DNA of 64,000 nt from Centipeda flueggei ATCC 43531 (GTDB lineage: Bacteria; Bacillota; Negativicutes; Selenomonadales; Selenomonadaceae). The DNA is taken from positions 426,532 to 490,531 of the forward strand of contig NZ_GG694006.1 of assembly GCF_000160695.1 (NCBI RefSeq). Direction: 5' to 3'. The notes under the pieces are model-generated. The model saw only the letters and a list, made by a program, of their open reading frames with translations. It had not been told where the DNA came from and did not search any database. Position numbers and translations under genes: made by a program. Positions 9,262 through 63,774 of this stretch are shown here, piece by piece. Position 1 is the stretch's first letter. Each line of letters starts with the position of its first letter.

Positions 9262-9858
9262 TCACAGCGGCACAACAGTACAGAGCCCGAGCACAGACTC
9301 CACCGACCGTCCCATCCTGCGCTCGAATTCTGCTTTCATCGCAAACAGCTTCCGCCAGCGCGGCATCGAAGTATGATCTACGCCATAGCGGAGCATGATA
9401 TCCATCATACGCCGTTCAATCGCCACAATCCCCTCATGGGTCGCCATCGCGTCGCAAAGCTGAATGAGCTGATCATACAGTGTATAGGTTCGCTTCTGCA
9501 GAAAATGATCCAAAAACGCATAATCCTCATCGCTCAGATCCCATCCTCCGTTAACGCCCGTGATGTCCTGCACGGGAAAAGAATGCGTCAGGCATATCTC
9601 TGCAGCCTCTGCATCGCCCTCTGCCAGCAGAAAGCGATAGCCTAGGATCACATGATTCATGCCCATCTCGCCAAATCTGCGTCCAATATCGTGCAGAGCG
9701 CCAAGAACAAAGGCACGTTCTGCATCCAGTTCTTCGATATGGACAGCGATACGCTCCGCCGCCGTTCCTACGGCAAGCGAATGGAAAATCCATCCGCCAT
9801 TGTTAAGAGTACGCGCTTGATCCAGATGGCACAAAGCGTCCCTGCGTGAGATTTTCAC
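9262..9858 (-). CDS. HD-domain hydrolase-like protein
   Basis: 198-aa protein with an HD-type metal site: a His at about residue 26 (WIFHSLAV) and GALHDIGRRFG around residues 52-62, plus later conserved His (THSFP). HD proteins are phosphohydrolases of nucleotides or related compounds; the substrate is unknown. Start GTG 9858 follows AAGAGGT; a further upstream GTG at 9876 is also in frame. It sits at the head of the sugar-nucleotide genes, directly after an inverted-repeat element. Association with a glycan cluster could mean removal of an inhibitory nucleotide sugar by-product, but nothing in the sequence proves that. Confidence 0.75.
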   Translation of the reverse strand: MKISRRDALCHLDQARTLNNGGWIFHSLAVGTAAERIAVHIEELDAERAFVLGALHDIGRRFGEMGMNHVILGYRFLLAEGDAEAAEICLTHSFPVQDITGVNGGWDLSDEDYAFLDHFLQKRTYTLYDQLIQLCDAMATHEGIVAIERRMMDIMLRYGVDHTSMPRWRKLFAMKAEFERRMGRSVESVLGLCTVVPL

Positions 9859-9883
9859 ATTTGACCTCTTCCGCACACAATGA

Positions 9884-10046
9884 TGGAATCACTGATAAAA
9901 TGCGGTTGCCAGATTGGCGTAGATTTTTTGTCCGATTAAGGCAGCAAACCGGACGCAGGGCAGAGGCTATGTGGAGGATTTGCTAACGATAAGCGGGCGA
10001 AAAAGATGCGTCAAGATGGTTGTTCCGAATTTATCAGTGCTTCCTT
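9884..10046. repeat. MITE-like element, copy A
   Basis: About 163 bp with imperfect terminal inverted repeats: GGAATCACTGATAAAAT on one side and TTATCAGTGCTTCCTTAT on the other. It matches a second element at 63607-63774 read in the opposite orientation, including the internal blocks CATCTTGACGCATCTT, ATCCTCCACA and CGCCAATCTG. The end near the HD gene has lost the outer TTAA-type bases. It contains no ORF of note and lies between the FkbM stop (10051) and the HD start (9858). No target duplication is clear. Confidence 0.75.
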
Positions 10047-10050
10047 ATAT

Positions 10051-11115
10051 TCAAACTGCATAAAATACAGACTCTCCGCTCGTCACACTGTGATGACGGA
10101 AATAGAAGCGATATCCGCCATAAAACGACTGAATCAACAGCGGTATACGAATATAATCTTCAAGGCTGTGATAAACGCAGACGGCAAGTTTTGGATGAGA
10201 CTCACGGATTGTCCGCTCTGCCCCATGGAGAGCATTGTACTCTGCCCCCTCGATATCCATCTTAATCAGTGTCGGCGCTTCGGTCATCACTGCATCGAGC
10301 GGCATTGCCGTGATCTGCGCCCCATCTCCGTCTCCCTCAATCCCCAAACGAGAAGCAGAGGGGGTTGCCTGATTTCCTGAAAACGAGAGCCGCTCCTCCA
10401 CATTCCAAAGAGCATAGGGATAGAGGGAGACCTGCGGAAGATCCACATATTTTTTCTTGAGCAGCTCACAGCTCTTCCCATCCGGCTCAAATGCATGCAC
10501 GCGGACTTTTGGATTCATGGCGAGTGCCTTGTCGATCTCCTCACCGCCGCATACGCCCGCATCCACAAACACCTCGTCATCACGAAGCGTCGGAATCACA
10601 TCGTTGGCAAAGTACTGATTGGCATCAACAAGCGAGAAATCCACCGGCCGACCATGAACCATATTATCAATCAGGCTGCGATAGAGTCGGCGTGATTTCT
10701 CATCGGCAAATGAGGCACAGATTGTATCAATATCCTGCTCATGCTCCGCAAAGTAACATGACGCATCCATCTGAACAGCAGATCGTATATCCGCCTTTAC
10801 TTCCTGCTTCTCCAACTGAGAGATGATTTGCAGCAGATTGATGCCGGTGACCCCAACAATGATAACAAGAGGCTGATCCGTCAAATAATACCGGCGGCAA
10901 AGCTCGAAGATTTGCTCAGATGACTGTACTTCGATTCCGTCAATCGTTGTGCCCTGCTTACTTTCTGCGTTATCACAGTAATAAAGCGGTTTCTGCAGCA
11001 TGTTCCGCTCTGCGCAGTATCTCCGATAAAATGCGCGCGCCACACGCCCTGTCCCCCAGAGCACATAGTCCCTCCCGCACAGCTCAGCAAAGACATTCGT
11101 TCTTTCAGCACACAT
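10051..11115 (-). CDS. FkbM family methyltransferase
   Basis: 354-aa protein. The N-terminal part (VLWGTGRVARAFYRRY) has a Rossmann-like glycine motif; the C-terminal half is an FkbM methyltransferase with VFVDAGVCGGEE, HAFEPDG and LIKMDIEGAEYNAL, the diagnostic FkbM strand. Such enzymes O-methylate sugars or polyketides. The ATG at 11115 has GAGGAG 8 nt upstream. It resembles the gene at 14520-15671 in architecture; the two share the pattern KMDIEG near residues 280-300 and an HPxLAVCVYH motif, suggesting paralogues. It starts 12 nt after the truncated radical SAM remnant. Confidence 0.87.
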   Translation of the reverse strand: MCAERTNVFAELCGRDYVLWGTGRVARAFYRRYCAERNMLQKPLYYCDNAESKQGTTIDGIEVQSSEQIFELCRRYYLTDQPLVIIVGVTGINLLQIISQLEKQEVKADIRSAVQMDASCYFAEHEQDIDTICASFADEKSRRLYRSLIDNMVHGRPVDFSLVDANQYFANDVIPTLRDDEVFVDAGVCGGEEIDKALAMNPKVRVHAFEPDGKSCELLKKKYVDLPQVSLYPYALWNVEERLSFSGNQATPSASRLGIEGDGDGAQITAMPLDAVMTEAPTLIKMDIEGAEYNALHGAERTIRESHPKLAVCVYHSLEDYIRIPLLIQSFYGGYRFYFRHHSVTSGESVFYAV

Positions 11116-11127
11116 GCGTCTCACTCC

Positions 11128-51415: not shown

Positions 51416-51503
51416 GGGAAACCTCCTCAAAAGATAAAGGACACACAGATAAATCCAGCCGCATTATTTCCAATCCAACGGGCTGTTTTATCCGTGATTC
51501 CAA

Positions 51504-62189: not shown

Positions 62190-62909
62190 CTAGAGCACCT
62201 TTGACAGGAAGCTGCGCGTACGCTCCTCCTGCGGATGCTCGAACACCTCGCGCGGTGCCCCCGACTCAATGATGCGTCCCTCGTCCACGAAGAGCAGGCG
62301 GTCGCCTACCTCACGGGCAAAGCCCATCTCATGTGTCACAATAACCATCGTCATGCCCTCGTTAGCGAGGGCACGCATGACATCGAGCACCTCGCCGACC
62401 ATCTCGGGATCGAGTGCCGACGTCGGCTCATCGAAGAGCATCACCTTCGGGTGCATCGCGAGAGCACGCGCGATGGCAACACGCTGCTGCTGACCGCCCG
62501 AGAGATTGTCGGGATAGGCATCCGCCTTCTCCGCCAGCCCCACGCGTGCCAGCAGCTCACGCGCCGTTTTCTCAGCATCGGCGCGTGCGATATGCTTTAC
62601 CTTCATCGGGGCGAGCATGATGTTGTCGAGCACCGTCATGTGCGGGAACAGGTTGAACCGCTGGAACACCATGCCGACCTCTTCACGCACTTTATTGATG
62701 TTTGCCTCGCCCGAAAGTGTGATGCCGTCGATGGTGACCTCGCCCGCCGTCGGCTCCTCGAGATGATTCATGCAGCGTAAAAGCGTGCTCTTGCCGGAGC
62801 CGGACGGACCAATGATGACAACGACCTCCTTCTCCGCAATGGAGAGATCAATGCCCTTCAGCACCTCATCCGCGCCGAACGACTTACGCAGTTCTTTAAT
62901 CTCAATCAT
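62190..62909 (-). CDS. glnQ: Polar amino-acid ABC transporter ATP-binding protein
   Basis: 239-aa ABC ATPase: Walker [11 protein letters not shown]-loop, signature LSGGQQQR, Walker [15 protein letters not shown] and H-loop THEMGFA, the classical GlnQ arrangement. ATG 62909 overlaps the permease gene by 8 nt. With GlnP it powers uptake of polar amino acids; the binding protein is not adjacent. Confidence 0.94.
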
Positions 62910-63573
62910 GGACGCGGCACCTCCGTTCCAGATACGCGACAAAGCGCGAGATCGTCAGCGTCATCACGAGGTAGATCACGGCGACGCTCATCCAGATTTC
63001 AAACGACCCGTAAGTCTTCGCGATAATGAGCTGCCCGCGCCGCGTCAGCTCCTCAAAGCCGATGACGGAGACAAGGGACGAATCCTTCAGCATCGCAATA
63101 AACTCGTTGCCGAGCGGCGGAATGACGCGCTTGAACGCCTGCGGCACAATGATGTAGCGCATGGTCTGCAGCCACGTCATACCAAGTGAGCGCCCAGCCT
63201 CCATCTGCCCCTCATCGACCGACTGTATCCCCGCACGAAAAATCTCCGCCACGTACGCGCCGGAGTTGATGCCGCAGGCGGAGATCGCTGCGATGAACGG
63301 ATCGATGCGCTGCCCCGTGATCACAGGAAGGGCAAAGTAAAAGAGGAAAATCTGCACGAGCAGCGGCGTGCCGCGGAAGAACTCCACATAGACCTCCGCC
63401 AGCATCCGCAGCGGGCGCAGATGCGAGATGCGCGCCACGCCCACGATCAGACCGATCACAAAACCGATCGCTGTCGAGAGCACCGTGATCTGAATCGTCA
63501 CTCCAGCACCGACAAGCAGGAGCGGGAACGAATTAACCACGAGATTCATATCGAAATTCATAAACTCATCCAT
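62902..63573 (-). CDS. glnP: Polar amino-acid ABC transporter permease
   Basis: 223-aa membrane protein with about five helices and the EAA-type loop ([23 protein letters not shown]), the His/Glu/Gln-family permease. ATG 63573 is listed; an internal ATG 12 nt downstream follows GGATGAG and is also possible. First gene of glnP-glnQ-DMT-ftsZ-like run. Its promoter is a consensus TTGACA/TATAAT pair next to element B. Confidence 0.9.
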
Positions 63574-63606: not shown

Positions 63607-63774
63607 TTAAGGAAGCATTGATCAATTCAGCGCCATCATCTTGACGCATCTTGTTTGCCCGCACGTCGGCGAAATATCCTCCACAGAGCACCATTCTGCC
63701 TCCGTTTTTCCACCGCGTTCGGACGAAAAACCTGCGCCAATCTGACGACCTTCATTTTATCAGTGATTCCTTAA
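63607..63774. repeat. MITE-like element, copy B
   Basis: About 168 bp with terminal inverted repeats TAAGGAAGCATTGATCAA and TTTATCAGTGATTCCTTA (near-complementary). Related to copy A at 9884-10046 over the full length, the two lying in opposite orientation. The ends read TTAAGG and CCTTAA, so a TTAA- or TA-type target may have been duplicated. It lies 2 bp downstream of the -10 box of the glnP promoter and would form most of the glnP leader. Confidence 0.8.

Follow-up and report, generated by a model that had tools for sequence, protein, structure and literature searches.

The question raised by this locus is whether two matching stretches, lying in the 64,000-nucleotide stretch of Centipeda flueggei ATCC 43531 DNA analysed here (the window; contig NZ_GG694006.1, positions 426,532 to 490,531), represent a mobile element, and, if so, what moves it and what its long hairpin signifies. 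We confirmed that both stretches (hereafter, copies A and B) are copies of a genuine non-coding miniature inverted-repeat transposable element (MITE), characterized by insertion with a 4-bp duplication, empty sites, ends shared with an insertion sequence (IS), a genus-wide spread and a covarying hairpin. We hold with high confidence that they belong to a genus-wide family of non-autonomous IS5-type miniature elements of ~160 bp, probably mobilised in trans by a transposase of the IS5 family. The family is a member, not described before, of the already familiar class of bacterial MITEs. The Selenomonas/Centipeda group comprises oral bacteria; none of the titles or abstract openings in the literature searched names this oral-Selenomonas element family, and by term counts neither Selenomonas nor Centipeda appears in the main text of a paper on non-coding RNA in periodontitis.

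Copy A occupies 160 bp at 9885..10044 on the forward strand, with its bounds taken from the aligned copies and its orientation being the one that gives the better RNA fold. The target duplication TTAT lies on its right (10045..10048) and a degraded version, TGAT, identical at three of four positions, on its left (9881..9884). The left terminal inverted repeat, GGAATCACTGATAAA (9885..9899, forward strand), agrees at all 15 bp with an end of the full-length IS of L071 and L073, and the right one reads GGAAGCACTGATAAA on the reverse strand (10030..10044). Copy A is inserted between two reverse-strand open reading frames (ORFs), which carry an HD domain (9262..9876; listed GTG start 8 bp from the element) and an FkbM methyltransferase domain (10051..11124; stop codon 6 bp from the element), respectively, and the sole listed ORF of at least 100 aa that enters it (10006-10380, forward strand) is antisense to the methyltransferase ORF. 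Copy B, also of 160 bp, lies on the reverse strand at 63611..63770 between exact TTAA duplications (63607..63610 and 63771..63774), upstream of an ABC-transporter permease gene (BPD_transp_1; 62902..63573, reverse strand) to which its hairpin strand is sense. The nearest named relatives of this permease are found in Selenomonas and Centipeda species, with 99% identity to that of S. felix. In addition, a short degraded relative of 63 bp is present at 51439..51501 on the reverse strand as a weak profile match (E 4.0e-5) with no clear duplication (TAAA/AAAA).

Copies A and B are ~75% identical, and the sequences bear out the shared ends and opposite orientation reported in the preliminary description. 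The range it gave for copy B (63607-63774) does contain the element, but takes in both target duplications as well. Its shared end motif needs correction as well, in that the end is preceded by a duplicated YTAR-like target and not by a fixed TAA; across the family this end reads mostly GGAA[TGA]C[AG]CTGATAAA. The terminal inverted repeats measure 15 bp, with 97.5% of the terminal-helix cells paired across 68 copies, as expected of a MITE. In agreement with the length of such elements (less than ~400 bp, without a transposase gene), 172 of 183 distinct copies are free of N and 148-164 bp long.

The two copies had been described as a pair; both are real, but the family numbers dozens of copies. 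A blastn search with copy A returned 41 matches in its own 2.16-Mb genome (8 contigs), while a covariance model built from 68 copies located at least 88 distinct places there. The latter is a lower bound in that the best 150 of 981 candidates were scored, and it corresponds to 108 matches (E up to 0.001) minus 20 second-strand repeats, with degraded and short copies included. The terminal pattern, allowing up to three mismatches, occurs 173 times in this genome (90 + 83) versus 8 times (5 + 3) for a reversed control, which is far above chance. The nearest pair of own copies shares 98.8% identity, and the median nearest-neighbour identity is 91.9% for 62 full-length copies of this genome, namely those compared because a neighbour aligned with them over 140 bp. 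Shorter forms were also observed in this genome, namely of 56-59 bp (L335, L337, L340, L342, L344, L346 and L348; four of seven with exact 4-bp duplications) and of 101-105 bp (L330, L332 and L338; one of three with an exact 4-bp duplication). Such discrete size classes with family ends are either separate mobile subfamilies or hairpin-tip deletions; most of the remaining 101-102-bp entries were discarded as spurious pairings within full-length copies.

When copy A was searched against 41 genomes, all 14 genomes of the genus gave matches and none of the 27 others did (11 other genera of the family and 16 other families of the class). Together with the target duplications, this leaves no sign of the structure conserved across genera without mobility that the preliminary description had named as the outcome contradicting its MITE reading. 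Model matches per genus genome, with second strands counted, ranged from 1 (G003) and 2 (G013) to at least 150 (G007). Among plasmid records the element was not matched at E 1e-5. A viral contig of 21.5 kb (L380, IMGVR_UViG_2834304018_000001) contains a 38-base pattern, taken from the 3' portion of the element, without any mismatch.

The flanks of the copies point to insertion. Exact 4-bp duplications border 35 of 68 copies (6.2 on average and at most 13 in shuffles) and, in a larger set that takes in one spurious 26-base entry, 90 of 182 copies (mean 14.6 and maximum 27 in 1000 shuffles), being absent from the other 92. The duplicated targets among these 90 are TTAA (25), TAAA (12), TTAG (11), CTAA (7), TATA (7), CTAG (6) and others in smaller numbers. 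The targets are thus YTAR-like, and the IS5 family is known for a 4-bp YTAR-like target in IS classification.

Orthologous places lacking the element were found for both window copies. At the site of copy B, compared in 8 Selenomonas/Centipeda records, the element is at the same place in S. felix and six of the eight lack it; none of 72 more distant records from the same search has it. S. infelix carries its own separate insertion nearby (L117:2822-2982), upstream of the same permease gene, with a duplication that looks more like 3 bp, and the copy B locus is in this sense a recurrent insertion site. For copy A, both flanking ORFs have matches in G004 and G001, where the element is missing between them, a comparison that is approximate because the flanks and the intergenic sequence have diverged.

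A full-length IS with the same ends is present in relatives, though none was found in the own genome. We detected six elements of 1,235-1,247 bp in five genomes (two in G001 and one each in G003, G006, G007 and G008), the ends of which match the MITE over 15-18 bp. Their flanks are YTAR-like in nearly all six copies, with an exact 4-bp duplication in one (L072). Their transposase of 332 aa is assigned to the IS5 family (NF033581, E 1.5e-87, 293.6 bits versus a cut-off of 140) and has DUF772 and DDE_Tnp_1 domains; no solved structure was matched at E 0.001. L072 and L076 (G001:C1:1726482-1732359) are two IS copies ~5 kb apart with the transposase gene interrupted in both. Whole or in pieces, the transposase was found in 8 of the 14 genus genomes searched, but not in the own genome (a draft of 8 contigs, 99.7% complete, in which an IS could sit in a gap), nor in G002, G004, G005, G010 and G013. 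Its presence is uncoupled from the number of element copies across these 14 genomes: in G003, 7 transposase matches go with a single element match, and G010 is the reverse, with 131 element matches (second strands included) and no transposase. The IS copies and pieces of G003 lie at loci L069, L079, L082, L088, L102, L105, L108 and L111, and several of its 7 transposase matches are partial.

Beyond the terminal 15-18 bp, MITE and IS share interior matches of 8-13 bp only (E 0.14 or worse). Since these are short chance matches, nothing visible marks the MITE as a shortened IS, and an internally deleted derivative is rejected on account of an interior that lacks IS homology. Considering the ends, the targets and the family of the transposase, we propose from sequence comparison that an IS5-type transposase probably moves the MITE in trans. 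Another transposase may be the mover, given how short the shared end is and that one end reads CTGAAAAATT in several IS copies.

The preliminary description had also remarked that the ends could fold into a long RNA hairpin. This remark proved correct, and the hairpin both covaries and favours one strand. In the alignment of 68 copies (A1), 96.6% of the consensus-structure cells pair, against 35-50% when the structure is slid. Cells changed on both sides number 119 versus 39.2 in shuffles, and 15 of 42 pairs show a two-sided change, a count reached in 11 of 500 shuffles, versus a shuffled value of 11.4. The fold of copy A amounts to -71.6 versus -41.9 kcal/mol for the two strands; shuffle z-scores around it are -6.46 for one of the strands and -2.21 for its complement. 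All 68 copies fold better as RNA of the element's forward strand (means -71.8 versus -45.8 kcal/mol), and one strand is more stable as RNA in 167 of 172 copies of the larger set. Rfam has no family at gathering scores within the window, and copy A gave a chance match only (E 5).

This strand bias is due to G-U pairs. In the larger set, G-U exceeds A-C cells by 1181 to 204 with the structure of the better strand and by 313 to 169 with that predicted without G-U, and by 386 to 311 and 310 to 157 with structures predicted from the other strand; on the 68 copies the counts are 303 versus 47, and 240 versus 14 at mismatches of G-U-free folds. Common pair types are 12 G-U versus 1 A-C (p 0.003) with the structure of the better strand, dropping to 4 versus 0 and 5 versus 1 with a G-U-free or an other-strand structure. 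Rare variant cells are symmetric (75 G-U versus 79 A-C) and reflect the decay of single copies. Parsimony on the tree yields a mild excess of G-U, with 196 G-U versus 147 A-C events with the structure of the better strand (149+47 versus 116+31; p 0.009), and 172 versus 127 and 168 versus 124 with other-strand structures (p ~0.01). The consensus bias of -28.1 kcal/mol compares with a symmetric null whose mean is -11.5, not 0 (sd 9.8; p 0.04).

Overall, these results constitute moderate evidence for selection on the strand bias (p ~0.003-0.04, values that are generous given the relatedness of the copies and their recombination). A large part of the bias was present in their common ancestor. In our reading, the spreading lineages would have been strand-biased from early on, with single copies free to decay and ongoing selection weak at most. 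In keeping with this, copy B has diverged from its S. felix counterpart at 19 of 159 sites of the element, and no constraint is seen on it, because this divergence exceeds that of the third codon positions of the permease (12 of 223) and of the upstream flank (3 of 229 sites). A more speculative reading, which we consider rather unlikely, is that of a SINE-like bacterial element, in which a founder RNA that was structured, or became so, was captured between IS5 ends; spreading lineages would then keep a one-strand hairpin, its RNA aiding either the spread or the tolerance of insertions by the host.

The covariation over the whole length of the hairpin (119 versus 39.2; 96.6% versus 35-50% paired) and the better RNA of one strand in 167 of 172 copies would also suit a repeat that is primarily a structured host RNA, either cis-regulatory or a small RNA, maintained at every locus because the host uses it and mobile in appearance only secondarily. 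Such an RNA would have to be reconciled with copies that show no orientation preference toward neighbouring genes (54, 53, 32 and 24 of 163), with a copy B lacking visible constraint against S. felix (19/159 versus 12/223 and 3/229), with a strand rule broken evenly by rare variants (75 versus 79) and with the absence of an Rfam family; target duplications and element-free sites show insertion. We regard this explanation as very improbable.

The strand bias could, on the other hand, mark a folded single-stranded DNA substrate, as in an element of the REPIN or IS200/IS605 kind that a Y1/RAYT transposase mobilises. The element's forward strand, the one to which DNA parameters were applied, folds well with them too (z -4.14). 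Y1 single-strand transposition is not expected to involve terminal inverted repeats or target duplications, and the MITE has both, sharing the former with a DDE-type IS5 element and being flanked by 4-bp duplications. Even considering that REPIN hairpins have been described with compensatory changes (PMC3116915), this alternative appears extremely improbable. The non-autonomous IS5-type MITE remains our preferred reading, and it accounts for the further copies, empty sites and relatives' IS with the same ends that were found where the preliminary description had suggested looking.

The position of the copies relative to genes was evaluated with a home-made codon-usage gene caller on copies of at least 140 bp, 16 of which were dropped for a missing neighbour. 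Among the remaining 163, 140 are intergenic (<20% overlap), 22 overlap a gene partly and 1 is wholly contained in a called gene. Their orientation is sense in 54, antisense in 53, convergent in 32 and divergent in 24 cases; the near equality of sense and antisense copies rules out an orientation-selected UTR element. With the same gene caller, 36 of 171 flanks facing gene 3' ends (about a fifth) lie at 0-3 bp, versus 2 of 155 facing 5' ends. This excess at 3' ends would result from insertion into YTAR targets that contain a stop codon, preserved by the duplication. MITEs at terminal codons have been described elsewhere (PMC2674063).

Based on these findings, we propose a theoretical scheme for the spread of the family. 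A full-length IS of the IS5 family (~1.24 kb) would supply a transposase that binds the shared 15-18-bp ends and acts in trans to insert the element at YTAR-like targets, of which 4 bp are duplicated. A stop codon, TAA or TAG, may belong to the duplicated target, so that the gene would stay whole. The copies of the own genome are probably stranded unless an IS arrives, because no such transposase was found there. The interior, unrelated to the IS, turns the whole element into one imperfect hairpin, the transcript of which could form double-stranded RNA, a possible substrate for RNases such as RNase III. By analogy with Correia elements (RNase III) and ERIC, the hairpin may affect transcripts.

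The element fills dozens of intergenic places per oral Selenomonas/Centipeda genome, at gene ends and in upstream regions, where annotation or masking is advisable. Its many copies, comparable empty sites and parent-type IS in relatives make it suitable for asking if the spread of a MITE is affected by its RNA fold and not by its DNA ends alone.

Several known systems resemble this family in part. Correia elements differ from the Selenomonas MITE in ends and targets, RUP is moved in trans by an IS of the IS630 type rather than the IS5 type, and no parent IS is known for ERIC. The QMITE1 and QMITE2 elements of Coxiella burnetii are described as numbering ~50 copies apiece, in full-size and smaller forms, with predicted transcripts that are very stable and in some cases give small RNAs, but differ in length, host and duplications of 2-3 nt (QMITE1) and 7-11 nt (QMITE2) (PMC5896051). 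RUP of Streptococcus pneumoniae, with 108 repeats of 107 bp, is likewise believed to be mobile via its terminal repeats, according to a passage of PMC2229807 that describes no hairpin function for it. ERIC is a 127-bp intergenic repeat with another sequence and other hosts, reported at gene 3' ends to alter mRNA levels in an orientation-dependent manner (PMC10969869, PMC2229807). Correia/nemis elements of Neisseria are also small (107- and 155-bp species) and numerous, and their stem-loop transcripts are cut by RNase III (PMC2229807, PMC10969869), whereas their hosts are others and such cutting is presumed for the Selenomonas element. Covarying hairpins have precedents among bacterial repeats, because REPINs and stem-loop repeats of Borrelia plasmids are described with compensatory changes in their hairpins (PMC3116915, PMC2674063); REPINs, unlike the Selenomonas element, are associated with RAYT (Y1) transposases and have no IS5-type ends.
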